44,048 nt of DNA from an uncultured Bermanella sp. (GTDB lineage: Bacteria; Pseudomonadota; Gammaproteobacteria; Pseudomonadales; Oceanobacteraceae): contig CAJXRF010000049.1 of the NCBI GenBank assembly GCA_913058575.1, positions 1 to 44,048 of the forward strand, written 5' to 3'. Shown here in pieces: positions 16,700 to 36,393 of the stretch (position 1 is its first letter; every line of letters starts with the position of its first letter). The notes beneath the pieces were generated by a model. It ran no database searches. It had not been told where the DNA came from and saw nothing but the letters and a program-made list of their open reading frames with translations. Position numbers and translations under genes: made by a program.

Positions 16700-17302
16700 C
16701 TATCCAATCTCTAGCTCTGCACCTAATATTTTTTCCACTTCTTCTATTAAGTGCTTTTTTTGAAAAGGCTTACTCACACAAGCATGGGCACCCGCATTCT
16801 TAGCTCGATTCAATTCATCATCATCTAAAGCACTGATCACTAACACTTTAACATTCTTAAATTGCTCTTTATACTTCATGTATTCCAGCACTTCAAAACC
16901 ATTCATATTGGGCATGCTTAAATCTAATGTCATTAGCGAAGGCTTGAAACTGGTGAGCAAAGAACCGGCTTGAAAACCATCATAGGCAATTTCAGTTTCA
17001 TAACCTGCATTTCTTAATACCCGTTGTATGGCCGCAGCCATGGGCCGTTCATCATCTACGATTAAAATCCGCTTATTTTCATCTAATAAACCATCGGGAA
17101 TGGGCATTTTATTGTCTTTTAGAAATGCAATAAAATCTTCTTCATCTATGCGATTATTGCCACGCCCAGGCAATTTATAGCCTTTAAGGCGGCCTTTTTC
17201 TATCCAGCGAATAACCGTTCTAAAGTGTACTCCGCAGTAACGCGCAACATCACCACTGCTTAATACACGCTTATTTTTTTCGGTTAAAGCACGGCTGGCC
17301 AT
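16700..17302 (-). CDS. Response regulator with N-terminal excisionase/BldC-like HTH and C-terminal receiver
   Basis: The product is 200 residues. Residues 12-62 are a MerR-like winged helix of the excisionase/HTH_17 type (VLSSGDVARYCGVHFRTVIR, then WIEKGRLKGYKLPGRGNNRI). Residues about 77-197 are a receiver with the acidic pair VDDE, phosphoacceptor Asp127 (TLDLSMP) and the conserved lysine in SKPF. The order HTH-then-receiver is the reverse of most response regulators. The start has a strong AGGGGAAG. A 9-bp iterated motif lies 19 bases before its start codon and recurs before two other units of the island, so it probably autoregulates. Its cognate kinase is not fixed, but several are within 13 kb. 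Confidence 0.87.
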   Translation of the reverse strand: MASRALTEKNKRVLSSGDVARYCGVHFRTVIRWIEKGRLKGYKLPGRGNNRIDEEDFIAFLKDNKMPIPDGLLDENKRILIVDDERPMAAAIQRVLRNAGYETEIAYDGFQAGSLLTSFKPSLMTLDLSMPNMNGFEVLEYMKYKEQFKNVKVLVISALDDDELNRAKNAGAHACVSKPFQKKHLIEEVEKILGAELEIG

Positions 17303-17321: not shown

Positions 17322-17348
17322 TGACTTTAGTGACAATCGTGACAAAGT
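17322..17348 (+). promoter_or_regulatory. Three direct 9-bp repeats (TGAC iterons), site 1
   Basis: TGAC occurs at 17322, 17331 and 17340, exactly 9 bp apart; the first unit is TGACTTTAG. The array lies 19 bases upstream of the HTH-receiver gene (minus strand). It is one of three related arrays and the first of two in the 340-base region 17303-17642. The rest of that region is AT-rich and shows no gene I can support. Confidence 0.65.
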
Positions 17349-17582
17349 TCAGTATAGACTATCTATTAACTAACAAGCTTCGTCAAAAGTCACTTACGAC
17401 TAGTCCCCCTCCAATTCAACTATTAGTTCATAATGAACATTTTTTAATTCCCATAAGTTTTAAAAGAATGGTTATTCTTATAAATAATATGATGAAAGGA
17501 CATTTCCACCCAAGTTCTCTGAAAAATCACCACACGAAATAAAGCAATAAAATTATAGATAAATTCGGTCTAACTACATTTA

Positions 17583-17618
17583 TGACATTAGTGACAATAA
17601 TGACTAAAGTGTAATCAC
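17583..17618 (+). promoter_or_regulatory. Three to four direct 9-bp repeats (TGAC iterons), site 2
   Basis: TGAC occurs at 17583, 17592 and 17601, and TGTA at 17610, all in 9-bp steps. The first unit is TGACATTAG. The array ends 24 bases before the start of the GGDEF-EAL gene. It has the same period and similar units as the arrays at 17322 and 23041. Confidence 0.65.
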
Positions 17619-17642
17619 TACTTATAAATTCACAGGTGCTTT

Positions 17643-19700
17643 ATGCTTAATTCACTATTGTTGGTTGACGATGAGCCCAATGTTTCAAAGTCTTTAGTGC
17701 GCCTACTACGAAAAGAAAACTACCAAATTTATGTGGCTAATTCTGGAGAGGAAGCCCTGTCATTATTACAGCAACACAAAATTAAAGTAATTATCAGTGA
17801 CCAACGCATGCCTAACATGACTGGCGCGCAATTATTTGCACAAGTAAAGCAGCAATACCCAGAAACCATACGAATTATTATCAGTGGCTACACCGATTTC
17901 CAATCGGTCAGTGATGCCATTAACAAAGGCTCTATATATAAATTTCTTGCCAAACCTTGGAATAATGAAATTTTGAGAGCTGAAATAAGAGAAGCCTTTA
18001 ATACTCAGGGTCTTATTCAACATAACCAACAACTGAGCCATCTATTTGATAGCACTATAGAAGCCATTGCCATTTGCAATGAAAAAGGGCTTATTGAAAG
18101 CGTAAACCCTGCTTTTTGTAATCTAAGTGAATTTAGTCCCAGCGAGGTGACCGGTAAACCTTTAATGGCGTTATTTTCCACCAGCAATGGAATGGATTTG
18201 CCTGAGGACTTATTAACGGTTAACCCAGAAGAAGAATGGCATGGTGAACTGGCTTGCCGGAAAGGCAGTGGTTATTCTTTTCCTGTTTGGCTAAGTTTAA
18301 TGGCCATTAAAGGCCCTTATAACGAGCTATATTACGCTGCGCTCTTTATTGATATTAGCGAACAAAAAAAGAAAGAAGCGCATATTGAATACCAAGCTTT
18401 TCATGACTCACTCACAGGCTTAGCCAATAGACGCCTTTTCAATGACCATTTAGAGCTCGTTATACACCAATGTAATCGGGATCAAAAAGAACTGGCCATT
18501 TTATTCATGGATTTAGATCGTTTTAAAATTATAAATGATAATTTAGGTCATACCGTGGGCGATGCATTATTAATAGAAGTGGCTAAACGCTTACGAAAAG
18601 CCATTCGTAAAGGCGAAACTCTTGCCCGATTTGGCGGAGATGAGTTTGTTATGATTTTAACCAGCAGCCAAGTGGTGCAAGATGCCGAACTGGTGGCTAA
18701 AAAAATACTAAATTTATTCACAGAGCCTTTCAAAATTGGCCGCCATAGTATTTATGCATCCCCCAGTATTGGCATTAACACCTCCCTAAGGGATCACAAA
18801 AACTCTGAACAATTACTTTGCCATGCCGATTCCGCTATGTATAAAGCAAAATCCATCGGCGGCAACACTTTTCAATTTTATGACAACAATCAAAACACCA
18901 CCACTAAGAATCAAATGCAGGTTGAAAATTCATTACATGATGCAGTTAAAAATGATGAATTTTTATTGCATTACCAACCTCAGGTTAATCCCATCAATGG
19001 CGATGTGGTAGGTAATGAAGCCTTAGTTCGCTGGCAACATCCAGAAAATGGCCTTCAAGGCCCAAATACCTTTATTGCACTAGTGGAACAAAATGGACTC
19101 ATTATCCCTATTGGCAAGCAAGTACTTCATCAAGCGTGTGCACAACTAGCTAAGTGGTGGCAACAAGAAGAAACCCGTTGTAAATTATCTGTTAATTTGT
19201 CCGCTCGTCAATTCAATGAAGCTAATTTATTGGAAGACATTTGCGAACTCATCCGAATTCACAAACTTCACCCTTCTTGGCTTGAAATAGAAGTGACTGA
19301 AAGTATCTTAATAAACGATTTACAAGGGGGCATAGACATCCTAAATGGGCTTCGTGAAATAGGTGTTGGTATTGCCTTGGATGATTTTGGCACCGGTTAT
19401 TCTTCACTAAGTTATCTACAACAATTACCCATTACCACCTTGAAAATAGATCAAAGCTTTATACAAGATCTACCCAATAATAAAAAGAGTTGCTCTATTA
19501 CTGCATTTCTTTTGGGTTTAGCAAGAGACTTAGATATGCAAGTGGTGGCTGAAGGGGTGGAAACTCAGGAGCAGTTTGAATTCCTTAGAGATGCAGGCTG
19601 TGATCTTATTCAGGGCTATTATGTCAGCCGTCCCATATGTGCTAGAAAATTTGAAAAATTTATAAAGGAAAAGCACTTAGCTAAAATGGCTATCGCCTAA
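17643..19700 (+). CDS. Response regulator with REC-PAS-GGDEF-EAL domains (c-di-GMP turnover)
   Basis: The product is 685 residues. The receiver is at 1-120 with Asp53 in ISDQRMPN and the lysine in AKPW. A PAS domain is at about 130-245. The GGDEF domain (about 255-415) has an intact GGDEF at 331-335; its inhibitory RxxD site is degenerate (RKGE at 322-325). The EAL domain (about 430-680) has EAL at 459-461 and the later DDFGTGYSSL and KIDQSFI motifs, so it looks able to hydrolyse c-di-GMP. Whether synthesis or hydrolysis wins cannot be told from sequence. The start has CAGGTG upstream and a 9-bp iteron array just before it. A likely target is the PilZ domain of the Alg44-like protein at 37964-39670. 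Confidence 0.93.
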   Translation: MLNSLLLVDDEPNVSKSLVRLLRKENYQIYVANSGEEALSLLQQHKIKVIISDQRMPNMTGAQLFAQVKQQYPETIRIIISGYTDFQSVSDAINKGSIYKFLAKPWNNEILRAEIREAFNTQGLIQHNQQLSHLFDSTIEAIAICNEKGLIESVNPAFCNLSEFSPSEVTGKPLMALFSTSNGMDLPEDLLTVNPEEEWHGELACRKGSGYSFPVWLSLMAIKGPYNELYYAALFIDISEQKKKEAHIEYQAFHDSLTGLANRRLFNDHLELVIHQCNRDQKELAILFMDLDRFKIINDNLGHTVGDALLIEVAKRLRKAIRKGETLARFGGDEFVMILTSSQVVQDAELVAKKILNLFTEPFKIGRHSIYASPSIGINTSLRDHKNSEQLLCHADSAMYKAKSIGGNTFQFYDNNQNTTTKNQMQVENSLHDAVKNDEFLLHYQPQVNPINGDVVGNEALVRWQHPENGLQGPNTFIALVEQNGLIIPIGKQVLHQACAQLAKWWQQEETRCKLSVNLSARQFNEANLLEDICELIRIHKLHPSWLEIEVTESILINDLQGGIDILNGLREIGVGIALDDFGTGYSSLSYLQQLPITTLKIDQSFIQDLPNNKKSCSITAFLLGLARDLDMQVVAEGVETQEQFEFLRDAGCDLIQGYYVSRPICARKFEKFIKEKHLAKMAIA

Positions 19701-19808
19701 TTATTTTTCAGGACTTTATGAGCCATATTAATCCAGACTTAACCATTTTATGTGATACAAAATAGTCTAGTCTTATAACAGTACAAATGAAGAAAAGGAG
19801 CCCTATTT

Positions 19809-21032
19809 ATGAGAGATCTTAAAAATATTTTTCTCGTAATAACAGCCCTTATGATAATGAGTAATACAGCCCACACTCAGCCTTCTTATCACCTATATTT
19901 AGATGCCGATCAAACCGGCGCTAAGGCCTCGGGGCAATCCATAGAACAAGGTATTAAAACCGCACTACACCAAGTTAACAACACACTTGGAGGCAAGACA
20001 GTTAAATTGATTATAAAAGATCATCATGGCAGCTCCCTGCGCAGTAAACGCCACCTTGAAGAATTCCTTAACGATCCACAAGCGCTTGCCATATTTAGTG
20101 GTTTACACTCCCCTCCACTATTAGATAACTTGACATTTATTAATGAAAATAAAATTCTGCTATTGGACCCATGGGCGGCCGCTGGCCCTATTACCCGTTA
20201 TTCTAAAGGTGAGAATTGGGTATACAGATTATCTATTGATGACAGTAAGGCGGGTAAGGTCATAGTTAACAGTGCCATTAAAGAAGGCTTTTCCAAACCC
20301 TTTTTGCTATTAGAAGAAACTGGCTGGGGTCGCTCCAATTTTAATACTATGAATAAAGCTTTAACACAGCAGGGATTAAAAGCAGCGGGCACCAAATGGT
20401 TTAACTGGAATTTAGGAGAAACCGGTGCCAAAATGATATTTAGAGAGATTTCTGAAACAAAGGCCGACTGTATTTTGATGGTGGCCAATGCTCATGAGGG
20501 AAAGACCTTTGCAAAAGCATTATTATCACTGCCTAAAACCATTAGATTGCCCATTCGCAGCCACTGGGGCATAACGGGTGGTGATTTTCCAAAAATCATT
20601 CATGCTCAGCACAGAAAAGGCATTGATTTAAAGTTTTTACAAACTCGCTTTTCATTTATTAGTTCGCCAGACACTCCTTTCAATAAAAATGTTTTTAAAG
20701 ACGCTAAGAATTTATTTCCAGTTGTTATTCAATCCAAACAAGATATTAAAGCCCCCACCGGTTTCATACACGCATACGATTTAACAAGATTACTCATCGA
20801 GGCTATTAAAAAAAGTCAATTAAATGGAGATATCACTCAAAAAAGACAGTCTATACGAAAAGCACTAGAATCTCTTAGCACTCCTATTAAAGGACTAATA
20901 AAAACTTATCAGTTACCTTTTACTTCATTCACAAAAAATTCACCCGATGCTCATGAAGCGCTTACCATGGAAGATTTTGTAATGGCTTTTTATGGTGACA
21001 ACAACCAGATCATTCTTGATGAAAGACTATAA
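19809..21032 (+). CDS. Periplasmic binding protein, Leu/Ile/Val-binding type (Peripla_BP_6), probably sensory
   Basis: The product is 407 residues with a signal peptide (hydrophobic 6-20, ending AHTQ) and a strong AAGGAG. The pattern of branched-chain amino-acid-type receptors is visible: SGQSIEQGIKTALHQVN, then AIFSGLHSPPLLDNLTFINE, then ILLLDPWAAAGPITRY. No permease genes are present. Its 3' end overlaps the start of a membrane histidine kinase gene, so it probably presents a ligand to that kinase. The ligand is unknown. Confidence 0.85.
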   Translation: MRDLKNIFLVITALMIMSNTAHTQPSYHLYLDADQTGAKASGQSIEQGIKTALHQVNNTLGGKTVKLIIKDHHGSSLRSKRHLEEFLNDPQALAIFSGLHSPPLLDNLTFINENKILLLDPWAAAGPITRYSKGENWVYRLSIDDSKAGKVIVNSAIKEGFSKPFLLLEETGWGRSNFNTMNKALTQQGLKAAGTKWFNWNLGETGAKMIFREISETKADCILMVANAHEGKTFAKALLSLPKTIRLPIRSHWGITGGDFPKIIHAQHRKGIDLKFLQTRFSFISSPDTPFNKNVFKDAKNLFPVVIQSKQDIKAPTGFIHAYDLTRLLIEAIKKSQLNGDITQKRQSIRKALESLSTPIKGLIKTYQLPFTSFTKNSPDAHEALTMEDFVMAFYGDNNQIILDERL

Positions 21033-22905
21033 TAATTTCGAACACACACAACCAAAGAAACCCAAAGGAATTTCCTTTCCAATGGCTTTCACTATCTTTA
21101 TATTTAGTTTATCTATTTTACTTGGACTATCTTTGTGCGTTTTAGTTTTCTTCAAGGTTGACTCCTTGGTTCGTGAAAATAGAGCCGATTATATTCAACA
21201 GGAAATGAACAGCATTGCCCGTGAATTCGAATCATATCTATTTTTAAGACAACAGGTGATCAGCGATTACGCAAATTTTCCCATTGTACTGCAAACGGTT
21301 ATGCATCCAAAAACTAATGAGGGTAGCATCCAAGACTTCATAAATGATTTAACAGTTTTAGGCAGTAAAGTCCCCTTAACCCTTAGGGATTACGAAGGCA
21401 ATATTCTGTATAGCACCCAAAATAAAGAAGAACAAATAGCCTTCCCAAAGCGAGCAAATGAAGAAAATGAAGAAAATGAAAAATATTTCATTAATATTTT
21501 TCCCACAAATAATCTTAAAACCATTTATATCAATCTAATTATGCCCATTTACTATCACAATCATGTTGAGGGCTATTTACAGGCAGATATTCCCATCTCT
21601 GATATTGCCTCATCATTAAACCTTAAAGAACGCAGCCAACACCATAGAATTCAATTTAAACATAAACACTTTATTTTTTTAGATTTAGGTGATCAAAAGC
21701 TTCACATTATGGAGCATATTGACATTGGTAATACCGGCGTGGCTTTAAGCTACCAAACACAAGATCAAGACCTCGTCAGTTCACGGAAATCTTTAATATT
21801 AGAAATGCTCATATGGTTATCGATAATTTGGTTTGTGGTCAACCTAATTTCCAATAAACTGGGGAAAAAATATTTAATTATGCCATTGGAGCGATTAAGG
21901 CAATTTTCCCATGAACTAGCCGAAGGTAAAATTAAAGAGATAGACTCAACCACTGACGCTGAACCCTACCAATTACTTGAAATAAATGATTTAGAGCATA
22001 ATTTTCAAGAAATGGCTAAAAAAGTCACTCAAAGAGAAATCTCTTTAAATCAGGCCAAAGACAGCTTGCAAGAGCTAAACGATCGATTAGTTGAACACCA
22101 ACAACAATTATTGCACAGTGAGAAACTCGCCTCGGTAGGGCAATTAGCAGCGGGCGTGGCACATGAAATAAACAATCCCACTGGATTTGTTATGGGTAAT
22201 ATAGAAGTACTAAAAGACTATAAAGAAGATTTACTCAGCCTCTTTGAACATTACCAATTACTAGAGAACTGCATACAAAATCAAGACATGAACGCCATAC
22301 TGGTTAAATATGAGGAAATACAATTATTCAAGGGAAAAAAGAACATACAATACATTTTAAGTGACATGGATGACTTAATTAAAGACTCATTAGATGGCAC
22401 AAATCGCATTAAAAATATCGTGCAAGATTTAAAGAACTTTTCACGAGTAGACAGCGTAAAAAAGAATTTAACTGACCTCAACGAAGATGTCATTGAAACA
22501 GCCCTTAGATTAGTATGGAATGAAATTAAATATAAATGCACCTTGGAAAAAGACTTAAACCCCTTACCACTTTATCCATGCAATTCAGGGGAGTTAAGCC
22601 AAGTCATTCTCAATCTATTAGTTAATGCATCTGATGCCGTCACTGAAAAAGGCATTATTTCCATCAGCAGCCGCTTAATGGAAGATTATATTGAAATTAA
22701 AATCAGCGACAATGGAAGTGGCATTAATGATAATGATCTTAACAAACTGTTTGATCCTTTTTTTACAACCAAAGAAATAGGAAAAGGCACAGGCCTTGGG
22801 TTATCTATTTCCCATCGAATCATTGAAAAACACGGCGGAATTTTAAGTGTGGCCAGCCGAATAAATGAAGGTACTGTGTTCACTATTATGCTTCCAATCG
22901 AATAA
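21019..22905 (+). CDS. Membrane sensor histidine kinase
   Basis: A start at 20992 is possible, but the ATG at 21019 overlaps the upstream gene by only 14 bases and keeps the whole protein, so I chose it (628 residues). Transmembrane helix 1 is at about 22-46, a periplasmic sensor of about 210 residues follows, helix 2 is at about 258-278, then a HAMP-like linker and coiled coil. The HisKA box is EKLASVGQLAAGVAHEINNP with His382. The ATPase domain has the N box (LSQVILNLLVNASDAV), DNGSGI and GTGLGLSISH. The gene overlap with the binding-protein gene implies coupled translation and a shared sensing task. Its catalytic core is very close to that of the REC-kinase at 26823. No receiver is attached. 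Confidence 0.9.
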   Translation: MKDYNNFEHTQPKKPKGISFPMAFTIFIFSLSILLGLSLCVLVFFKVDSLVRENRADYIQQEMNSIAREFESYLFLRQQVISDYANFPIVLQTVMHPKTNEGSIQDFINDLTVLGSKVPLTLRDYEGNILYSTQNKEEQIAFPKRANEENEENEKYFINIFPTNNLKTIYINLIMPIYYHNHVEGYLQADIPISDIASSLNLKERSQHHRIQFKHKHFIFLDLGDQKLHIMEHIDIGNTGVALSYQTQDQDLVSSRKSLILEMLIWLSIIWFVVNLISNKLGKKYLIMPLERLRQFSHELAEGKIKEIDSTTDAEPYQLLEINDLEHNFQEMAKKVTQREISLNQAKDSLQELNDRLVEHQQQLLHSEKLASVGQLAAGVAHEINNPTGFVMGNIEVLKDYKEDLLSLFEHYQLLENCIQNQDMNAILVKYEEIQLFKGKKNIQYILSDMDDLIKDSLDGTNRIKNIVQDLKNFSRVDSVKKNLTDLNEDVIETALRLVWNEIKYKCTLEKDLNPLPLYPCNSGELSQVILNLLVNASDAVTEKGIISISSRLMEDYIEIKISDNGSGINDNDLNKLFDPFFTTKEIGKGTGLGLSISHRIIEKHGGILSVASRINEGTVFTIMLPIE

Positions 22906-23040
22906 TCGACCTCCCTCGCCTAACCCCTATATTCCTCTAATTCATCTTAAACAGTTTTTAAAGAATTAATGGAAGTTAATAACTCCCCTGCATTCTTAAA
23001 GCCATACAAAGTATAAATAACCGGTATTTCCATGATGCCC

Positions 23041-23085
23041 GTACATATGAGACATTTGTGACATTAGTGTCTTATGTGTCATTAC
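23041..23085 (+). promoter_or_regulatory. Five-unit 9-bp direct repeat array, site 3
   Basis: Successive 9-mers read GTACATATG, AGACATTTG, TGACATTAG, TGTCTTATG and TGTCATTAC. The central unit is identical to the first unit at 17583. The array ends 11 bases before the ATG at 23097 and overlaps the region before its ribosome-binding site. A possible -10 (TATAAA near 23010) lies upstream, so a bound protein could block transcription. It precedes the five-gene operon 23097-28788. Confidence 0.65.
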
Positions 23086-23096
23086 AGGGATATTTC

Positions 23097-24104
23097 ATGA
23101 ATAATAACCCGTTCATTCGCACCCAGTTTTTTTTAGGTTTTGTTTTTAGCTGCCTAATTATGCCTTATGGTTTAGCAAGTTCATTTGATGAGCTTCAAGA
23201 CAACTTACGTTTTTCTATTGATGTAAGCGCGCGCAGTGTAAATTACCAAGATGTGGAGCAAGTGGGCTACACCCATATTGTAGGAATGGATTTACATAAA
23301 GTATTCACTAACCGAAATGGCGATGTGGGCACACTTATCTTACAAGCTTACATGACTAAGCTTGATAATCAGATTCAGCACCCAAGCTTTTTTGAAGACG
23401 AAAATGACTCTCAATTAGTTTACCGCATATTTACCTTTAACTTTACCCAAACCCAACCGTGGCAGCCTAACTTAAAATTGGGCCACTTAGAAATTCCCTA
23501 TGGCTTAGAGCACAGTATTAATACCAATGGCACTTTAAGAGATTATGCACAGGGTTCTAACCTTGGTATTAAAGCCGACTGGGGCGTCAGCCTAAATAAG
23601 CAGCATCAGCTGTTTGAATATGAAATAAGCACCTCCACAGGAGGTGGGCAATCTTTACAAGCAAACGATAGCAGTTATGTCTACTCCGCTCGAATCGGCA
23701 CCCCTAGGCACCTTAATCAAATCGTGGGCATATCCGTATATGAATCTAAGTTAGCCAATAATACACGTCGCCGTGTTGGTTTAGATGCTCAGCACTACTG
23801 GGGACTATTCGCCTTGTTCGGCCAGTTAGATCACGGTGAGAATAATGGCCAATATGTAAATCGTGGCCTTATGGAGTTCAATTGGCGCGATACACGAGAA
23901 TTCACCACAATTTATCTACAAAGCATTTATGCCCTTGAGGATAGCGAACTAGCTCAACAAAATAAATTGACTTTCGCCATAGGCGCCCAATTAGACTACC
24001 GACAGAGATGGGATTTCAGTGGCCAATTTAAATGGGATCATGACACCTTTAATGAGCAAAAAAAAACTGAACGTTTAAGTCTTCAACTTCGCTATCGATT
24101 TTAA
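23097..24104 (+). CDS. Predicted outer-membrane beta-barrel (porin-like) protein
   Basis: I chose ATG 23097, preceded by CAGGGA; the longer frame from GTG 23058 would read through the iteron array. The product is 335 residues with a signal peptide (hydrophobic QFFLGFVFSCLIMPYGLA). Many amphipathic strands follow, and the last residues (LSLQLRYRF) end in phenylalanine, as typical barrel proteins do. I do not recognise a specific family. It heads an operon with a small periplasmic protein, two kinases and a receiver, which is unusual for a porin and suggests a sensing or uptake module. Confidence 0.75.
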   Translation: MNNNPFIRTQFFLGFVFSCLIMPYGLASSFDELQDNLRFSIDVSARSVNYQDVEQVGYTHIVGMDLHKVFTNRNGDVGTLILQAYMTKLDNQIQHPSFFEDENDSQLVYRIFTFNFTQTQPWQPNLKLGHLEIPYGLEHSINTNGTLRDYAQGSNLGIKADWGVSLNKQHQLFEYEISTSTGGGQSLQANDSSYVYSARIGTPRHLNQIVGISVYESKLANNTRRRVGLDAQHYWGLFALFGQLDHGENNGQYVNRGLMEFNWRDTREFTTIYLQSIYALEDSELAQQNKLTFAIGAQLDYRQRWDFSGQFKWDHDTFNEQKKTERLSLQLRYRF

Positions 24105-24139
24105 AAGGGCTATCCGTTACTTCAAACAAGGGGAGTGCT

Positions 24140-24754
24140 ATGAGAATGATGACTAAATATTATTTAATAACCTTATTATGTGTTTTTGGAATAAATACTG
24201 TAAGCGCAGAAGCTTTTTGTGCACTACGAGACCCAGTCAACAGTATTTACCAGCTTTATCCTAATGCCACTAGCTATCAATCTATCGTGCGGACTGTTAA
24301 TCAACAAACCCGAGAACACATCATTACCCACTTGCCCAATTTCAACCTACACTTTTCAGAGATGGGACGTCATACCCTTTATGTAGCACTGCAAGATGGA
24401 CAGAAAATTGGCTATATCCATGTAAGATCTGAGCAAAGCCAATGGGGGCTTGTGGAAGTGGCTTGGGCACTAAATTTAGACCTTAGTGTAAAGGATTTTG
24501 TATTTCAACGGGCTCGAGATCCTAGTCGAAAATACTTAGAAACACCTGATTTTAAAGGCCAACTAATAGGCCGAGATTTTAATACTTTAAGGACTCTAAT
24601 TGACTCTCCATTTGCTGAGTTTTCCACCCCATTATTTACCAACAAAGATGCATTAAAGTTAGTGACCGTGGTGATCAAATCAGCCATGAAAACTGTATTA
24701 ATAACCGAGCAAGCCTGGAATGATGACCTACAAACAGTCAGTACAGTGAAATAA
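24140..24754 (+). CDS. Small periplasmic protein, possibly FMN-binding-like
   Basis: The product is 204 residues with a signal peptide (YYLITLLCVFGINTVSAEA) and a GGGGAG ribosome-binding site. The order of a GxxIGYIHVR strand, a WALNLDLSVKDFVFQRAR strand pair, and ETPDFKGQLIGRD recalls the FMN-binding domain found in RnfG/NqrC/NosR-type proteins. The covalent-FMN threonine motif is not evident, so this is tentative. One cysteine lies just after the signal peptide (FCALRDP). It is 35 bases after the barrel gene and 2 bases before a kinase gene, so it is clearly part of the operon. It may feed a redox or ligand signal to the kinase. Confidence 0.6.
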   Translation: MRMMTKYYLITLLCVFGINTVSAEAFCALRDPVNSIYQLYPNATSYQSIVRTVNQQTREHIITHLPNFNLHFSEMGRHTLYVALQDGQKIGYIHVRSEQSQWGLVEVAWALNLDLSVKDFVFQRARDPSRKYLETPDFKGQLIGRDFNTLRTLIDSPFAEFSTPLFTNKDALKLVTVVIKSAMKTVLITEQAWNDDLQTVSTVK

Positions 24755-24756
24755 CC

Positions 24757-26817
24757 ATGAAAATTTCCCAGCAATCTATGCTTGTGGTTTTGGTCTGTGT
24801 TTTAGGCGGTTTGTTTACGAGTGTAATTATTGGCATTAAGTCTTATCAAATCCAATATGCACAAGAAATTAATACCAAAAACATACTGCTTTTAAGAGAT
24901 GTAAAACACCAAAAACTTATGCTGTCACAATGGTTTATTACTATTGACTTGTATTTCAGCCAGCAAGACTCTTATTTACAAAATGGCATTAGTAGTCAAG
25001 CAAAACAACTGCTTAACATGCTAAGTTTAAATAATTCCAAGCCCATTCAGCCCGAACAATTTACCAATCCGAAAAAATTCCAAGATCTTTATAATGTAAT
25101 ACTACAATCCACCGAACTACTCTACACCGATATTAATCTTGTGGCATCACTTATAAAGGAATCTTCTGGTTATAATGTGCAAGGTTCAAAATGGCAAAAT
25201 AGCTTGGCTAAAGTAGACAAATTATCCAGCAACGTCATCGTTTTATTAAATAACCTGCAGTCTCAATATCAACAACTGAGCAATCACAGCCAACAAATAT
25301 TAGATAATAAAAAATCCAACATGCCCATCATTTCAGCCTTCACCATTTCAATGTATTTCTTATTAATATTTTGGGCGTGGCGGTTGGCCAATACATCTAT
25401 TATTAAACCTTTAGTTTCACTTAACAACAAAGCCAATGAAAGCCTACTTTTACAACAATCTGAAGATATTCATAATATTAACTTTCGCTTAAATAAAGGC
25501 CCAAAGGAAGTGGTAGAACTTAGCCATTCCTTACAACGCTATGCTCAAACACTACAACAACAAATAGAACAAGCCAATCAAGCGCGATTAAAATCTACCA
25601 GAGACAAAAATTACATATCAAGCATTATGAATTCTATTAGCGACTCAATCATTACATTAGATGAGCATGGGGTAGTTAAAAACTCTAACAGCGCTACTTA
25701 CGATTTATTCGATACTAGTATGGAAGAGCTGCATAATCTAAGCATCAACTCTATATTGCCAAGAATGTATATTACTTATAATGAAATAAGCAAACTAGTA
25801 GGCAGTCGCATCGAAAAAACCTTTAAAACCAAAAAAGGCACCAATCGATCAATTGAAATTTTCATCACCAAGGCGTTCCATAAGAATAGTAACTTTTTTA
25901 TCTTAGCAATACATGACACGAGCAAACGAATTGAAAATGAAAACAATGTCAAACGCTTAAATCAACGTTTAGTCAATGCTTCCCGAAAAGTAGGTGTGGC
26001 CGAAATGGCCACGTCAATATTACACAATGTGGGCAATATTCTTAATTCAGTTCATGTTTCCACCAACCTAATTACCGACACCCTACAAAACTCTCGAGTT
26101 AAAGGTATAAATAAATTAGCTAACATCATGTCGAACAAAGAAGACTTCTTTGATGATAAAGATAAAGTACAAATGATTCCCGAATATCTTTATAGTTTGT
26201 CCGACCGCATAGATGAAGAACGAGAGATCACCCTGCGTGAAGTTACTCTACTAAACAACAATATTAATCATATTGAAGAAATAATTTCATCTCAACAGAA
26301 ATTTTCGAGCACCTCCAGTGCCTACGAATGGGCCACTATATCTGACTTAATTGAAGATGCCATCAACATTAACAGAGAAATAATTGAACAGCATAATTTC
26401 AATATCATTAAGGAGTTTGAGAATATTAAAGACGTCAATATTGAAAAATTTAAGGTACTGCAAATACTGGTTAATCTCATTACCAATGCTAAAGATGCCA
26501 TAATAGAGAGCAAAATAACAAACCCAACCATAATATTAAGAGTTAGAAACCTTAATGACGACAACATAGAGCTCACCGTTCAGGATAATGGCATAGGCAT
26601 TAACGAGGATATACATAAGAAAATATTCAGCTATGGTTTCACCACTAAAAAAAGCGGTCATGGATTTGGATTACATAGCTGCGCTCTTACTGCAAAAGAA
26701 ATGGGAGGAAAACTTGTTATGCAAAGTAATGGACATAAATTAGGAGCCAAATTTGTTTTGGTAATTCCAAAAGACAATGCGCCTAAAAGTGCCACCGTTC
26801 ACCAAATCAGGAAGTAA
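24757..26817 (+). CDS. Membrane PAS histidine kinase with HNxGN-type phosphoacceptor box
   Basis: The product is 686 residues. Transmembrane helix 1 is at about 7-27, a periplasmic helical region follows, and helix 2 is at about 190-210. A PAS domain is at about 280-395 (SISDSIITLDEHGVVKNSNS). The phosphoacceptor box is of the VAEMATSILHNVGNILNSVH type, a known variant in which the histidine is followed by Asn-Val-Gly-Asn. The ATPase part has NLITNAKDAI, DNGIGI and GHGFGLHSCAL. The gene starts 2 bases after the upstream stop. The next genes encode a REC-kinase and a lone receiver, which are probable phosphotransfer partners. Confidence 0.9.
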   Translation: MKISQQSMLVVLVCVLGGLFTSVIIGIKSYQIQYAQEINTKNILLLRDVKHQKLMLSQWFITIDLYFSQQDSYLQNGISSQAKQLLNMLSLNNSKPIQPEQFTNPKKFQDLYNVILQSTELLYTDINLVASLIKESSGYNVQGSKWQNSLAKVDKLSSNVIVLLNNLQSQYQQLSNHSQQILDNKKSNMPIISAFTISMYFLLIFWAWRLANTSIIKPLVSLNNKANESLLLQQSEDIHNINFRLNKGPKEVVELSHSLQRYAQTLQQQIEQANQARLKSTRDKNYISSIMNSISDSIITLDEHGVVKNSNSATYDLFDTSMEELHNLSINSILPRMYITYNEISKLVGSRIEKTFKTKKGTNRSIEIFITKAFHKNSNFFILAIHDTSKRIENENNVKRLNQRLVNASRKVGVAEMATSILHNVGNILNSVHVSTNLITDTLQNSRVKGINKLANIMSNKEDFFDDKDKVQMIPEYLYSLSDRIDEEREITLREVTLLNNNINHIEEIISSQQKFSSTSSAYEWATISDLIEDAININREIIEQHNFNIIKEFENIKDVNIEKFKVLQILVNLITNAKDAIIESKITNPTIILRVRNLNDDNIELTVQDNGIGINEDIHKKIFSYGFTTKKSGHGFGLHSCALTAKEMGGKLVMQSNGHKLGAKFVLVIPKDNAPKSATVHQIRK

Positions 26818-26822
26818 TAGCC

Positions 26823-28301
26823 ATGGCCATAGATCAGGATCAAAACGCGAGTAAAGATACCCATGAAAACAAACGCATATTGATCATCGATGATAATAAA
26901 GCCATCCATGATGACTTTAAAAAAATACTCTGCGTAAACAACAATAAAAATAGTCACCTCGATGAACTAGAATCCAGTCTTTTTTCACAAAAAACGGCTA
27001 CCCCTACCCAATTAAATTTTGAACTCAGTTTTGCTCTACAAGGTGAGGAAGCTGTCGAACGGGTGAAAGAGGCTATACAATCAGGTAAACCCTTTGCCAT
27101 GGCCTTTGTTGATATTCGTATGCCTCCTGGTTGGGATGGGGTCGAGACCATACAACACTTATGGCAGGAAGATCCTAACTTGCAAACTATAATATGTTCG
27201 GCATATTCTGATTACTCTTGGCATGACATCAATCAAAAATTGGGGAATAACGACCGACTATTGATCCTTAAAAAACCTTTTGACTCCATTGAGGTGTTAC
27301 AAATGGCATGGGCCATGGTAAGCAAGTGGAATCTTGCAAAACAAGCGCAGTTAAAACTTGAAAACCTTGAAAATCTTGTAATGTTACGAACTCAAAAAAT
27401 TGAAGAAAAAAATACTTTGTTAGAAAAAAGTATCGTCGAACTTAATACCACACGCAGTCAACTTGTGCATTCTGAAAAGCTTTCTTCTATTGGTCAATTA
27501 GCGGCAGGAGTTGCCCATGAAATTAACAATCCCATTAGTTTTATATCAGGCAACATTGAGGTTTTAAAAGAGTATTGCCAAGATATTAGTAATATGATGA
27601 TGAGTTATCTGTCTCTTGAGAGTGATGTAATTAAAGGAAAAAAAGACGATATAACCAATAGATGTAAGCAACTTAAAGCCAAACGAGAAGCCATTAGATT
27701 AATGGACATCCTAAGCGACTTAGACAAACTCATTGATGATTCACTAAGTGGCTCTTTGCGCATACAAAATATTGTGAATGACTTAAAAAGCTTCTCAAGA
27801 GTTGATAGTAAAAAGGCCTCTCAGATGGATTTAATAGCTCAGGTAATTGACCCAGCCCTTAGATTAGCTGCAAATAACATTAAATATAAGTGCCGTGTTA
27901 ATAAGTCATTGTCTCCCCTGCCTCTATATTTGGGTCACCCTGGCGAGTTATCACAAGTTATAATGAACCTATTGGTAAATGCCAGTGATGCCATAGAAAA
28001 TCAAGGGGACATCACCATCACCTGTGATGTGATTGATTCACACATACACATTAACATCTCGGATAATGGTTCAGGCATGGATCAAGAACAGCGCTTAAAA
28101 ATATTTGATCCTTTCTACACCACAAAAGAACCAGGCAAGGGCACCGGCTTAGGGCTTTCCATATCCCATGGCATTATTCAAAAATACGCAGGAGAATTAA
28201 ACGTTGAAAGTCAACTGGGAAAAGGCACAACCTTTAATATACGGCTGCCTATTCCCAGCGTAATGGAAAACCACATATCGGATGGTAGCGATGAAGATTA
28301 A
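26823..28301 (+). CDS. Hybrid protein: N-terminal receiver followed by histidine kinase (no membrane segment)
   Basis: The product is 492 residues and soluble. The receiver (about 15-165) begins RILIIDDNKAIHDDFKKIL and has an insertion of about 30 residues before the second strand. The phosphoacceptor is in FVDIRMPPGWDG and the lysine in LKKPFD. This long receiver type is a recognised variant. A coiled coil leads to the HisKA box (EKLSSIGQLAAGVAHEINNP), followed by an ATPase domain with NLLVNASDAI, DNGSGM and GTGLGLSISHG. The kinase core is a clear paralogue of the one at 21019. It lies 5 bases after the membrane kinase gene and overlaps the next receiver gene, consistent with a phosphorelay. 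Confidence 0.9.
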   Translation: MAIDQDQNASKDTHENKRILIIDDNKAIHDDFKKILCVNNNKNSHLDELESSLFSQKTATPTQLNFELSFALQGEEAVERVKEAIQSGKPFAMAFVDIRMPPGWDGVETIQHLWQEDPNLQTIICSAYSDYSWHDINQKLGNNDRLLILKKPFDSIEVLQMAWAMVSKWNLAKQAQLKLENLENLVMLRTQKIEEKNTLLEKSIVELNTTRSQLVHSEKLSSIGQLAAGVAHEINNPISFISGNIEVLKEYCQDISNMMMSYLSLESDVIKGKKDDITNRCKQLKAKREAIRLMDILSDLDKLIDDSLSGSLRIQNIVNDLKSFSRVDSKKASQMDLIAQVIDPALRLAANNIKYKCRVNKSLSPLPLYLGHPGELSQVIMNLLVNASDAIENQGDITITCDVIDSHIHINISDNGSGMDQEQRLKIFDPFYTTKEPGKGTGLGLSISHGIIQKYAGELNVESQLGKGTTFNIRLPIPSVMENHISDGSDED

Positions 28302-28788
28302 AACGGTATTATTCGTTGATGATGAAGTCAGTATTCTCAATACCCTTAAGCGACTATTACGCAACGAAAACTATCATTTACTCACTGCCACCAGTGCTCA
28401 ACAAGCACTTGAATTACTTAACCAGTACTGCGTAAATATCGTGGTTTCTGATATGCGTATGCCCCATGTCGGTGGCGCTGAATTTTTAGAACAAGTCAAA
28501 TTAAAACACCCCGCCGTAAGTCGCATGATAATGTCAGGCGATGCTGATTTAGAGTCTGTTGTTAATACTATTAATCATGAGGATATCAAGCAAATTATTA
28601 GTAAGCCTTGGGATAACGACACATTAAAAAAAACAATAGCAAGCCATCTCACCTCCAATCAAAATACTATTGGGGATTCCCATGAGGATTCTATAACGAC
28701 TCACAAGTTAAAACAGGCAATTAATGTACAAAAAAGAGAAATTAACGAATTACAAAAAAAGCTAGAAGAATTCATACATAAAATTTAG
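28291..28788 (+). CDS. Single-domain response regulator with coiled-coil tail
   Basis: ATG 28282 is possible, but GGATGG at 28279-28284 is well spaced for ATG 28291 and puts the start directly at the receiver (MKIKTVLFVDDEVSIL). The product is then 165 residues. The receiver has the phosphoacceptor in VVSDMRMPH and the lysine in SKPW. The last 30 or so residues form a charged helix. It has no output domain. Its receiver resembles those of the GGDEF-EAL protein and the sigma-54 activator. It overlaps the REC-kinase gene by 11 bases and ends the operon. Confidence 0.87.
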   Translation: MKIKTVLFVDDEVSILNTLKRLLRNENYHLLTATSAQQALELLNQYCVNIVVSDMRMPHVGGAEFLEQVKLKHPAVSRMIMSGDADLESVVNTINHEDIKQIISKPWDNDTLKKTIASHLTSNQNTIGDSHEDSITTHKLKQAINVQKREINELQKKLEEFIHKI

Positions 28789-28797
28789 CTAAAGCAT

Positions 28798-30231
28798 TTA
28801 CTTATTCCAGGATTGTTGCTTCCTATAAATGGTCGACGGACTTATCTCTAATAACACCGCAGCCTTTGTAATATTCCCCTCACAAGCCTCTATGGCATAT
28901 TCGATAAATTCCTTTTCCATAAGCCATAGGGGTTTTATTTCCATATTGGATGGTAAAGCGCTCTGCCCCTGAGCAGAATCATTTACCTTACCTATCACCC
29001 CATTGGCGTTATTTAAAGGGGGATTACTTTCAAACAATTCCTCGCCCTGTTTACCTGAACCGGGCATAGATGTGTTAATTCTTTGAATGCCAGAATTCAG
29101 CATACTGGCTGTAACCTCAGGACCATCATTAAGAATAACTAAACTGTGTACTAAATTTTCAAGCTGTCGGATATTTCCCGGCCAGCGATATTCATGCATC
29201 AGTTCTATGGCGTCTTTTGAAAAATGACTGAATATTTTATTACCTTCTTTATTGTATTTATCTAAATAAAATTTTGAAATCAGCTCTATGTCATTACCCC
29301 TTTCTCTTAATGGAGGTAAATGAATATAAATAACATTCAGCCGGTAAAATAAATCTTCTCTGAACTCACCCTTTTCTACGGCATCACTCAGGGCCAATGA
29401 GCTGGCTGAGATAATTTGAGCGTGAAACTTTTCCACTTTATGACTGCCAATGGGCGTGTATTCCCGCTCTTGAATAACTCGTAATAACTTAGATTGAAGC
29501 GACATGGGTATGGTGGTCACTTCGTCTAAGAATAACGTCCCTCCTTGGGCTGCATTAAATAAACCTGCTTGATCACCTACAGCTCCTGTGAATGCGCCCT
29601 TTTTATGGCCAAATAATTGGGACTCCATGAGGTTTTCACTAAAATTTGCACAGTTAACAGCAATAAAGGGCTCTTCGTTACGTAGGCTTTCAGCATGACA
29701 TGCCTTGGCAATGAGTTCCTTACCGGTTCCTGTTTCACCGTGAATAAAAATGGGCACATTACTGCTGGCCGCACGGCTTACATAATCGAACACCTCAAAC
29801 ATTTTTTTAGATTCAGAGATAATATTGTGAAAAAGCTCTTTATGAGATTGACTCGTTTTTTTATTAGCTTGCGCCAACACTTCATTTACGTGGTAGCGAA
29901 TTTCTTTAATATCCCAAGGTTTCGCAATATAACGGTCAATCACACCTTGGTTAAACGCCACAGTAATGTCGTCAAAGTCATGAAATGCCGACAATAAAAT
30001 GCAATAGCACTGTTTGTTAAACTGCTTAATTTCTGAGAATAATTCAGAACCCTGCAATAGCGGCATACGCTGGTCGGATATCACCAACATGGGTTTATTT
30101 TCTTGGCAGTATTGAAGCGCTTCAATAGGGGAGCTAAAGCAGACGATATGGGCATCAACCGATCGAAGGCAACGTTTGAGAGATTCAAGAATGCTTACTT
30201 CGTCGTCCACCAGCACTAGGGTTGGTTTCAT
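28798..30231 (-). CDS. NtrC-family sigma-54-dependent response regulator
   Basis: The product is 477 residues. The receiver has Asp53 in ISDQRMP and a lysine in AKPWD. The AAA+ domain has Walker A GETGTGKE at 165-172, the sigma-54-contacting loop GAFTGA at 212-217, Walker B LFLDEV at 233-238 and a later RWPGNIRQLEN motif. A Fis-type HTH (EGNITKAAVLLEISPSTIYRK) is at the C-terminus. It should therefore activate sigma-54 promoters from an upstream enhancer when phosphorylated. Such promoter sequences occur in this window before the Alg44-like operon and, less well, before algD. It converges with the receiver gene at 28291, 9 bases apart. Confidence 0.94.
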   Translation of the reverse strand: MKPTLVLVDDEVSILESLKRCLRSVDAHIVCFSSPIEALQYCQENKPMLVISDQRMPLLQGSELFSEIKQFNKQCYCILLSAFHDFDDITVAFNQGVIDRYIAKPWDIKEIRYHVNEVLAQANKKTSQSHKELFHNIISESKKMFEVFDYVSRAASSNVPIFIHGETGTGKELIAKACHAESLRNEEPFIAVNCANFSENLMESQLFGHKKGAFTGAVGDQAGLFNAAQGGTLFLDEVTTIPMSLQSKLLRVIQEREYTPIGSHKVEKFHAQIISASSLALSDAVEKGEFREDLFYRLNVIYIHLPPLRERGNDIELISKFYLDKYNKEGNKIFSHFSKDAIELMHEYRWPGNIRQLENLVHSLVILNDGPEVTASMLNSGIQRINTSMPGSGKQGEELFESNPPLNNANGVIGKVNDSAQGQSALPSNMEIKPLWLMEKEFIEYAIEACEGNITKAAVLLEISPSTIYRKQQSWNK

Positions 30232-30901: not shown

Positions 30902-32182
30902 CTACTCTCTTAATGATTTTTCCATTCCTAAAATAATAGGTGACAGCAAGTAATCTAGTACAGTGCGTTTTTCACCTAATATTAATGCTTCCACTGGCAT
31001 ACCAGGATAAAGATGAATATGGCTATTGCTGGCCAAAGCCTGCTCATCTACTTTTAATAGTAGCTTGTACACACCGTTTCCACCTTCAGTCATAAACCGA
31101 TCAGCTGATACTTGAATTACTTTTGCATCTAAAGGATTGTTTTGTCGCTGATTATAATTGTGTAATCGAATTCTGGCGGCATTGCCTGGTTTTACCAGTT
31201 CAATATCCTGTGCTGCCAAATCAGCTTCGATTACCAGTTGTGCTTGTCGAGGTACAATATCCATAAGGTAAGCACCACTGGCAATGGCTTCCCCTTCTGT
31301 ATGGGTTTGTAAGTTAATCACTGTGCCACTCACAGGGGCTAAAACACTGGTTCGGGCTAATTTTTGATTCACAAAATTTATTCTGCTTTCTAAACCCCAC
31401 TTTTCACTTCTTAGCAGGTTAATTTCATTAAGATTTCGACTGGTAAATTCATTCACAAGTGCTTTTTTATTAAGGCTAATAGATTCAAGTGCCATCTTTT
31501 GATTACTTATACTAGCCTCTTTAACAATACTGTCTTCATTCATGTCACTTATCCGAATATCTAATTGATTCAGTTCTCGCTTAGAAGAAAAATTCCGACC
31601 CATAAGTATTTGTAGACGGCTACGTTCAGCCAGTAACAGTTCCAGCTTTCTATGATCATGGACCAATGCAGCTTCTTCCCACATAATGTTATTAGATTGT
31701 TTCTTAAAATCTTGATTAATTATTTCTATTTTTTGAATGTGCTGATTCAATTGTGCGTGTTGTAATTTTTGAGTATTTTTCATCAGGGATAAAGTCTCCT
31801 GATCGATTGAGTATTGACGTTCATAATCATTTATATCTAATTTTTTATTTTCGCTAAGGCCAGTAAAACGCCAAATATCTAAATTAACTTTAAATAGTTG
31901 TTTATTTAATTCCTCAAGTTTATCAACCGACTCTTGGCTATCAAATGCAATTAGAACTTCCCCTTTTACTACCTCTTTATTCTCCGTCACAAAAATCGAT
32001 TGGATTACACCACCATCCAATGGCACTATTTTTTTACGAAAACCGTCTACACGTACATGCCCTTGAGCTTGAGTGGCTGATGAAACAGGTGCTAAATAAC
32101 CCCATGTCAATAAAATAGAAATTAACAAAAGCATTATCACTATCACTTCCACAAATAACTTACGACTCGAATACGTTTTCAT
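30902..32182 (-). CDS. HlyD/PrtE-type periplasmic adaptor of a type I secretion system
   Basis: The product is 426 residues. A single N-terminal membrane helix (about 9-27) is followed by the lipoyl-type segment VRVDGFRKKIVPLDGGVIQ, then a long coiled-coil hairpin (about 90-270). The return segment has VLAPVSGTVINLQTHTEGE. The C-terminal barrel ends with GMPVEALI. It would bridge the inner-membrane ABC exporter to an outer-membrane TolC-like channel, which is not encoded in the window. Its start overlaps the ABC gene stop by 4 bases (ATGA), so translation is coupled. Confidence 0.92.
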   Translation of the reverse strand: MKTYSSRKLFVEVIVIMLLLISILLTWGYLAPVSSATQAQGHVRVDGFRKKIVPLDGGVIQSIFVTENKEVVKGEVLIAFDSQESVDKLEELNKQLFKVNLDIWRFTGLSENKKLDINDYERQYSIDQETLSLMKNTQKLQHAQLNQHIQKIEIINQDFKKQSNNIMWEEAALVHDHRKLELLLAERSRLQILMGRNFSSKRELNQLDIRISDMNEDSIVKEASISNQKMALESISLNKKALVNEFTSRNLNEINLLRSEKWGLESRINFVNQKLARTSVLAPVSGTVINLQTHTEGEAIASGAYLMDIVPRQAQLVIEADLAAQDIELVKPGNAARIRLHNYNQRQNNPLDAKVIQVSADRFMTEGGNGVYKLLLKVDEQALASNSHIHLYPGMPVEALILGEKRTVLDYLLSPIILGMEKSLRE

Positions 32183-33816
32183 GCTCCCCCCCTAATCACA
32201 CTCAGGTTTAAGCCATCGATTTCAGCAGCATTACAAGCTTTTCCTTTATCCATTAAAATAACCCCATCGGCTAAATCAACTAATGAACGTTTTTGTGTAG
32301 AATATATAACCGTACAACCCTGGTCTTTCATAGACAAAATAAGTCTTTTAAATATCTGCTGACCCTCTTGATCTAAAAAGGCATCCGCTTCATCAAAAAA
32401 CAAATACTTTGGATTTCCATATATTGCACTGGCAATAATAATACGCTGTAGAATTCCAGGAGGAATGCTTTCCCCATGAAGGCCCACTGTTGTGTCATAA
32501 CCATTACGTAGCGATAGTATAAATTTATGTATGCCCAATTGCTCTGCCACTTCTACTACACGTTGCGGATTCAACTCTCCCTGTAAGTAGTGAGCAATTA
32601 TTTGCTGAATAGTATCGGTTGCCACTAACAAATTTTGAGGAACATAGCCTATTTGAGATCCTAACCATTGCTCATTTACATTTTCCCTATTATATTCGTC
32701 AAAATATACGTTACCTTCATATTTCACAGACACCCCTGCCATAGCATCAATCAATAAAGTTTTACCACTGCCATTGGCGCCAATAATGGCAATGGCTTCC
32801 CCTCTATTGATATTAACATTTACATTACAAAGTAATTCACGATAACCATCAATGCTAATACTTAGGGTTTCTACTTTTAATTGCCCCTCTAATATCGTTA
32901 ACGGCATGGGTTTATTAGCTGAGTTTTGATTGGCTTTTTGATAGATTTTGAACCTCTTATAAATATCTATCAAACGAGCCGACAATTGCCATTGACCTAA
33001 CAACACTTCAAAGGGAATCAAGCCACGATATCCAATAATTAGAGCGGCCAATAAAGTACCAGTGGTGATATCATTATTGAGCAATAAAATACCTCCTATT
33101 GTGGGAAGGCTTAGTTGTAACGCCCATTTAATAAATTGAAATAAGCACTTAAAACCATTTTCTTTTGTTTTTGAGACTAGTACCGATTCATTTAAATTAT
33201 TAGCGATATTATTGTTCGCCCAATTTACAATTCGATTATCCGCTCTTAGAAATTTGGCACCTCTCAGTAATTCATCCATTGATTGAAAATGCTTAGTTTG
33301 ATCTTTTTTAAGAATCTCCTGACTGTCCCCTAACGATTTTTGCTGATATAAAAACACAAGCAACAGTAATATATTGGCACCACCCACTAACGCGGCAAAG
33401 GCAGGGTGCAATAAATACAGAACCACCAAGAATAGAGGGCAAAAACATGCATCAATAGCTGCCAATAGAACACTATTGATATTACTTGAAAGTAATTTGC
33501 TTAAGTCTTTATAAATAAATGAATCGCCAACTTTACAACTGCTATTAATCAACGACTTTTGTGAATGAGAAAATATTAATTTTAATACCTGGGTAGGTAA
33601 ATATTGACGACGATATTCAAAGTAGCAATGGAACAATCCAACTATGGCGGCAGCAGCCAGTAACATATAAAGCGTTTCAAAACTGCCACTGCCCAGCACT
33701 CGATCAAAGATTTGTAGACTAAATAATGGAATCACTAATAAGGAGGTATTCGTGACTAAGCTGATGCCTAATAACAAAGCAACGCTAACCTTAATCGTAT
33801 GATGAATTTTATTCAT
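32179..33816 (-). CDS. Type I secretion ABC transporter (PrtD/HlyB-like) with degenerate ATPase motifs
   Basis: The product is 545 residues, the PrtD size, with no N-terminal C39 peptidase domain. The membrane part opens with the family motif VIPLFSLQIFDRVLGSGS. The nucleotide-binding domain has a normal Walker A (GANGSGKT) and Walker B (YLFFDEAD). The signature motif, normally LSGGQ, reads SIPPGILQR here. The switch-histidine segment reads YSTQKRS instead of the usual THR. Both changes would be expected to lower ATP hydrolysis. It lies between the RTX gene upstream and the HlyD gene downstream, so its cargo is almost certainly the RTX protein. Confidence 0.9.
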   Translation of the reverse strand: MNKIHHTIKVSVALLLGISLVTNTSLLVIPLFSLQIFDRVLGSGSFETLYMLLAAAAIVGLFHCYFEYRRQYLPTQVLKLIFSHSQKSLINSSCKVGDSFIYKDLSKLLSSNINSVLLAAIDACFCPLFLVVLYLLHPAFAALVGGANILLLLVFLYQQKSLGDSQEILKKDQTKHFQSMDELLRGAKFLRADNRIVNWANNNIANNLNESVLVSKTKENGFKCLFQFIKWALQLSLPTIGGILLLNNDITTGTLLAALIIGYRGLIPFEVLLGQWQLSARLIDIYKRFKIYQKANQNSANKPMPLTILEGQLKVETLSISIDGYRELLCNVNVNINRGEAIAIIGANGSGKTLLIDAMAGVSVKYEGNVYFDEYNRENVNEQWLGSQIGYVPQNLLVATDTIQQIIAHYLQGELNPQRVVEVAEQLGIHKFILSLRNGYDTTVGLHGESIPPGILQRIIIASAIYGNPKYLFFDEADAFLDQEGQQIFKRLILSMKDQGCTVIYSTQKRSLVDLADGVILMDKGKACNAAEIDGLNLSVIRGGA

Positions 33817-33839
33817 AAACTCTTCTCCTACTTGGATTA

Positions 33840-33868
33840 GACTATTTTAAAATCCCTTTAAAATAGTC
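33840..33868 (-). other. Perfect 12-bp stem-loop between the RTX and ABC transporter genes
   Basis: GACTATTTTAAA (33840-33851) and TTTAAAATAGTC (33857-33868) are perfect complements around a 5-base loop. It lies 24 bases before the ABC gene in the operon direction. No T run follows, so it is more likely an mRNA-processing or stabilising hairpin, or a leaky attenuator, than a full terminator. Confidence 0.6.
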
Positions 33869-33911
33869 ACCATTAATTTAAGGTGTTTCCTTATAAGGAT
33901 CAGCGTTTCAT

Positions 33912-36305: not shown

Positions 36306-36393
36306 ATGAATGTCTCCTAATTAATATCATCCTTAATAATTTTCCTCTGATTTAAATTATTGTTTACGGGTGGCCTTTGTTGGTACATGAAGT

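Follow-up and report, generated by a model that had tools for sequence, protein, structure and literature searches.

BldC of Streptomyces (PDB IDs: 6AMA, 6AMK), which controls actinomycete development, is a protein of 68 residues with a MerR-like winged helix-turn-helix (wHTH) domain, without coiled coil and without receiver domain. According to the available part of the report on BldC (PMC5859096), one protomer binds each 9-bp direct repeat, the protomers are arranged head to tail, and longer filaments are formed; in 2018 it was, to the knowledge of its authors, the sole MerR-like regulator on direct repeats that uses only its wHTH for both DNA contact and oligomerization. Classical MerR regulators also have the wHTH fold and, as the same part of that report describes, bind palindromes as symmetric coiled-coil dimers. 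Xis and RdfS, with a wHTH of the HTH_17 type, oligomerize head to tail on DNA as well and act in mobile-element excision, RdfS without a clear consensus site and neither with mention of a receiver domain (PMC11963761, in the part available). Here, we report three arrays of 9-bp direct repeats, A, B, and C, in a 44,048-nt stretch of DNA (the window) from an uncultured Bermanella sp. (GCA_913058575.1, contig CAJXRF010000049.1), located before a gene for a helix-turn-helix (HTH) protein with a receiver domain (HTH-receiver protein) and before two further sensory transcription units. With a probability of roughly 0.78, we consider these arrays putative operators of the adjacent HTH-receiver protein, a response regulator with a BldC-like domain that would act as a filament-forming repressor.

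The three arrays exist as an observation. Direct reading of the letters confirmed the coordinates given in the original prediction, as well as the distances of 19, 24, and 11 nt to the three start codons. Array A (17322-17348; TGACTTTAG TGACAATCG TGACAAAGT) has three 9-bp units and lies 19 nt from the start codon of the HTH-receiver gene at 17302 on the minus strand, TGAC on the plus strand being GTCA in the direction of this gene. Array B (17583-17618; TGACATTAG TGACAATAA TGACTAAAG TGTAATCAC), with three strong units and a weak fourth, lies 24 nt from the start of a receiver-PAS-GGDEF-EAL gene at 17643 on the plus strand. Array C (23041-23085; GTACATATG AGACATTTG TGACATTAG TGTCTTATG TGTCATTAC) lies 11 nt from the start of a five-gene operon at 23097 on the plus strand and adjoins its ribosome-binding site. 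The unit TGACATTAG is present in both B and C, as had been claimed, and the common feature of all three arrays is a GWC core at exact 9-bp steps, with a unit pattern of xxTGWCWWW. Array C had been described as five TGAC-type units; four of its units do carry GWC, whereas the first is degenerate and has no core, and the middle base of the core varies (GAC/GTC). The flanks in array C nevertheless hold one direction despite this core-base change. Immediately upstream of array A, a TATACT hexamer (17351-17356, minus strand) is the probable −10 element of the HTH-receiver gene, and similar hexamers are found at the equivalent position in two same-genus genomes, G003 and G006. Please note that a sigma-70 scan picks GATAGT instead of TATACT, and that the sigma-70 scans (four matches versus 1.8 expected, and two versus 1.1) do not settle the promoters. 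Like those of BldC, the arrays are 9-bp direct repeats with an A/T-rich part, a G-C pair, and a variable number of units, a likeness seen here at the level of sequence only; the BldC repeat, however, is AATTxxxxC in the part of the report available (PMC5859096).

The proposed binder, encoded at 16700-17302 on the minus strand and assigned by Pfam, orthologues, and fold, is 200 amino acids long, with Pfam matches to HTH_17 (E 8.3e-10) and to a receiver domain (E 1.4e-24). The residues for receiver phosphorylation are in place: the acidic pair D83 and D84, the phospho-acceptor D127, S157, and K178. Because a search with the full-length model returned receivers, the HTH part was modeled separately (63 residues; predicted local distance difference test score, 91.8). 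Its best Foldseek match in PDB is BldC with smeA-ssfA DNA (E 3.6e-3, TM 0.70/0.78), none of the PDB matches having E < 0.001; in a profile search, BldC comes second (E 0.0015) to a cobalamin-binding MerR-like protein (6.4e-4). The predicted HTH domain has a BldC-like wHTH fold. BldC Val23, Arg30, Trp31, and Gly44 correspond to V25, R32, W33, and G46, four positions that do not vary across 34 rows, the matching being taken from the alignment with a numbering offset derived in this analysis; Phe21 and Arg22 of BldC are not conserved. Xis (4J2N, rank 7) and RdfS (8DGL, rank 36) are also among the structural matches of the model; no integrase family turned up in general scans of part of the window proteins, in which no search was aimed at integrases or attachment sites. 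Unlike classical MerR regulators, the HTH-receiver protein has a receiver after the HTH, and A and B are direct repeats. The best receiver fold matches, 3LTE from Bermanella marisrubri (42% identity) and 3CNB from Colwellia (~32%), are receiver domains only; 3CNB is titled DNA binding response regulator merR, a title that suggests the same architecture. Since the stand-alone wHTH feature of BldC is absent here, we do not file the protein as a strict BldC-family member, and the best reading is a response regulator with a BldC-like DNA-binding domain. Neither such a domain fused to a receiver nor its DNA sites appeared in the titles and abstract openings among the literature matches listed.

Each array singly is a weak repeat and, as a plain repeat, no more than chance. 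Identity at lag 9 is 12/18 for A, 13/18 for B, and 17/27 for C; A is absent from the 21 rows that Tandem Repeats Finder lists for the window, in which B scores 32 and C scores 33. Given these values, the repetitiveness of single arrays was dropped as evidence. The pattern of three TGWC units with at most one mismatch, in contrast, matches 11 times in the window, each match overlapping one of the three arrays (a site counts more than once if it is read on both strands or in shifted positions), against a mean of 0.78 in the shuffled window, where none of 100 shuffles reached 11. Three exact three-unit arrays are found in 11 hand-picked intergenic stretches (2407 nt) versus a Markov null with a mean of 0.0015 and a maximum of 1 in 2000, the core having been chosen after the sites had been seen. 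Across the whole genome (5.72 Mb), exact TGAC(N5)TGAC(N5)TGAC occurs at only three places, A, B, and C21:49780, so that exact sites are rare, as the original prediction implied; two convergent genes have their 3′ ends on either side of the last one, which was rejected as a target. A site in G003 (C234:7685) inside a kinase ORF (open reading frame) was taken as chance. A longer pattern with at most one mismatch finds A, B, C, and C19:39552. This fourth best window-type array of the genome (C19:39552-39576, or L187:7553-7577; TGTAATTAGTGACTTTAGTGACATT) precedes a minus-strand ORF of 72 aa by ~100 nt, has a CheY-like gene nearby, and is a candidate site only.

Comparison with relatives supports A and B. 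Fifty-four related genomes besides its own were searched for orthologues of the HTH-receiver gene, and the nearest are in G006 (66%) and G003 (54%), both of the same genus. In both genomes the HTH-receiver gene and the receiver-PAS-GGDEF-EAL orthologue are each preceded by an array, directly so in the case of the former. Matches to the latter protein that span all 250 residues of the query with 63-70% identity are restricted to G003, G006, and the genome itself, with weaker or shorter matches in 19 others. The two genes are ~6 kb apart in G006, and arrays are kept at both. Over the three genomes, 21/27 columns of array A are invariant versus 13/68 in its flank, and 20/27 of array B versus 15/70. 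The genome also encodes a paralogue of the HTH-receiver gene (C92:14735-15280), divergent from a receiver gene and with a variant array at C92:14625-14643. Its unit, CCTGTCTAA, occurs once per genome in all three genomes searched, at the paralogue promoter (control, 0), and is carried by the same-genus kin of this paralogue too; it seems, therefore, that each paralogue uses its own variant of one code.

The 9-bp register extends to the wider family. A scan of 84,980 species, each represented by one genome, confirmed 197 relatives of the HTH-receiver gene; the best 80 entered the analysis, and 68 loci remained once similar upstream sequences had been removed. Motif-free recurrence of exact 5-mers in the 160 nt upstream peaks at lag 9 with 128 (100 control draws of distant segments from the same loci: mean 17.6, standard deviation 6.2, maximum 41), and smaller peaks are seen at lags 18 and 27. 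With the GWC core, which was chosen for this test after inspection of the upstream regions, a lag-9 pair within 160 nt is present in 52/68 loci (76%) versus 12% of 186 control segments taken upstream of other ORFs in the same loci; at least three units in a row are found in 19/68 versus 1/186, and runs of two units only in 33/68. If the four same-genus or earlier-seen loci are taken out, the pair is found in 49/64, lags other than 9, 18, and 27 averaging 5.8 in this set with a maximum of 11. By phylum, it is present in 44/51 loci of Pseudomonadota, 6/11 of Planctomycetota, and 2/2 of Latescibacterota, and missing in one locus each of Bacillota and Melainabacteria and in two unplaced ones. In the intergenic regions to a divergent ORF (ATG start, at least 100 aa, within 500 nt), 49/52 have a lag-9 pair; the corresponding numbers at lags not divisible by 9 are 5 to 16. 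GWC pairs number 61 at 18 bp and 42 at 27 bp versus 12.5 (standard deviation 4.5), and 31 at 36 bp, which is weak (largest off-register lag, 28); across a missing unit, there are 29 at 18 bp and 37 at 27 bp. This register at 18 and 27 bp, in which related loci are counted repeatedly, is the trace expected of a filament over weak units.

In the same order (293 genomes), 22 HTH-receiver matches were found in 20 genomes, and 16 of them have a GWC run within 200 nt upstream, several of these loci being shared with the other set. In L087, a locus titled Kangiellaceae that the 160-nt test scores as a miss, the interval from the regulator to a receiver-PAS-GGDEF-EAL gene holds an array of three units. 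At 23 loci, 19 divergent ORFs were detected. Ten of them, not chosen at random, were scanned and turned out to be four receiver-EAL proteins (three with GGDEF), one receiver-HD_5 protein, two receiver-kinases, one lone receiver, and two porins; by a simple pattern, 21/52 divergent ORFs have a receiver-like start. BLASTP gave no relationship between P0003 and the porin beside the regulator of L089.

Computational support extends to the arrays and their conservation, to the 9-bp register across the family, and to the BldC-like fold, and we infer from these that the HTH-receiver protein binds the arrays, forms a filament there, represses, and responds to phosphorylation. Briefly, one protomer would occupy each 9-bp unit, with its recognition helix on the GWC core and its wing over the A/T-rich flank, and neighbouring protomers would touch head to tail and build a short BldC-style filament. 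Array A begins a few bases after the probable −10, so a filament there would cover the transcription start and the HTH-receiver gene would probably be autorepressed; filaments at B and C would repress the sensory operons behind them. A kinase, perhaps the one encoded at 20992-22905 or those of operon C, may phosphorylate D127 of the receiver, which would change the cooperativity, either strengthening or loosening the filament. The original prediction of one protein polymerizing along the DNA agrees with the BldC-like fold, the published 9-bp binding of BldC (PMC5859096, in the part available), and the tendency of the register to continue past neighbouring units, and polymerization itself and the role of the receiver are what the model would add.

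Several results weigh against this model. Within the genome, the TGAC pattern with at most one mismatch gives 57 matches versus 64 for the reversed pattern, and the longer pattern with at most two mismatches gives 11 versus 9 (a control that is a total only). Neither scan shows an excess over its control, which puts weak matches at background level, and the case for the arrays accordingly depends on the strongest sites and on comparative data; for the same reason, no wider regulon is claimed. The conservation that the original prediction expected in relatives is found for A, B, and family members, not for C: the gene behind this array has seven homologues, four of which were inspected (L213, L215, L217, and L219; L214, L216, and L218 were left out), and none of the four has a convincing array, one pair each in L213 and L219 being judged chance and no pair occurring in L215 and L217. 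Array C is placed with A and B by its likeness to them and its rarity in the genome, and may, like C19:39552, possibly have arisen by chance. BldC Phe21 and Arg22, both oligomer-interface residues, are not kept in the HTH-receiver protein. A run is absent in 16/68 family loci within 160 nt and in 6/22 order-wide loci within 200 nt. In one clade of the tree, with 11 rows mostly titled planctomycetes, 10/11 are without a run, and the one run, in L140, has the appearance of a chance match in GC-rich sequence. At 19 loci of the same family (L057 to L076), homologues combine a nearly identical HTH with a receiver region that has diverged; none of the 19 shows a run in the 190 nt before the gene. 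Some GTC/GAC pairs in relatives can also be read as inverted repeats.

These results bear on how the arrays would be used and by which protein. The same operators may serve activation, as the arrays of other family members are some distance upstream of the probable −10, over the −35, so that activation is possible there; array A, however, is downstream of the probable −10 and array C adjoins the ribosome-binding site, and for these reasons we favour repression and regard activation in the window as somewhat unlikely. The HTH-receiver protein may also bind as separate dimers made by its receiver, on direct or inverted pairs of units and without a head-to-tail filament. Receiver dimerization is common, 33 of the 68 loci show two-unit runs only, and GTC(N6)GAC pairs look palindromic. 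Three or four consecutive units at 19 of the 68 loci, the enrichment at 18 and 27 bp with missing units included, the unidirectional flanks of array C, and the BldC-like fold all argue against separate dimers, which we regard as unlikely.

It is quite improbable, in our opinion, that another regulator owns the arrays and controls this gene pair, e.g., an OmpR/PhoB-type protein or the NtrC/LuxO-like protein encoded at 28798-30231. Several regulators are indeed encoded nearby, and the response regulators PhoP, PmrA, and AgrA bind direct repeats as well (PMC5859096, in the part available). In many genomes, however, the arrays accompany the HTH-receiver gene even though its neighbours differ, the array stays at this gene in G006 although the neighbour has moved, and the nearest fold relative of the HTH domain uses 9 bp. 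Functionless chance repeats or leftovers of slipped replication, for which the weakness of each array alone and the background level of weak matches could be cited, are hardly credible as an explanation, given that A and B are conserved and that the regions upstream of family members show a peak at lag 9.

Operators of the HTH-receiver protein, our preferred reading, would connect the following genes of the island, all on the plus strand. The first gene behind array B, at 17643-19700, encodes the receiver-PAS-GGDEF-EAL protein and is followed by genes for a periplasmic binding protein (Peripla_BP_6; 19809-21032) and a histidine kinase (HisKA, HATPase_c, and a weak dCache match; 20992-22905). 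Operon C (23097-28788) starts with a predicted exported protein (23097-24104) without Pfam or NCBIfam match, perhaps an outer-membrane protein at a guess from its sequence, and continues with a 204-aa protein also without match in either database (24140-24754), a sensor kinase (HATPase_c; 24757-26817), a receiver-histidine kinase (26823-28301), and a receiver protein of 168 aa (28282-28788). This operon sits between the kinase gene and the NtrC/LuxO-like gene, and the latter two are adjacent in G003 (L077:8632-11974), where array C therefore cannot be traced by synteny; operon C was either gained in this genome or lost in G003. Further along the window (30902-37992), genes for a type I secretion adaptor (HlyD) and an ATP-binding cassette permease come before large ORFs that contain tandem repeats. 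This gene order is shared with G003 (L077), where it ends in a glycine/aspartate-rich repeat protein that resembles an RTX adhesin, and it is an attractive guess that the cluster encodes an adhesin under cyclic di-GMP (c-di-GMP) control. A perfect hexamer tandem repeat, ATTTAC in ~10 copies, is located at the contig end (43988-44048).

The protein described here combines a domain of the BldC kind with a phosphorylatable receiver, and its putative DNA code, GWC every 9 bp, is readable from comparative genomics. We see about even chances that this represents a class of response regulators in several phyla, in which an N-terminal BldC-type domain forms a head-to-tail filament on 9-bp GWC arrays, phosphorylation of the receiver switches its growth, and sensing is tied to c-di-GMP turnover in the organism studied here. 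If true, it would provide an operator rule for a response-regulator class reaching several phyla, a filament on DNA under possible kinase control, and a testable connection with c-di-GMP enzymes, the recurrent divergent neighbours of the family.

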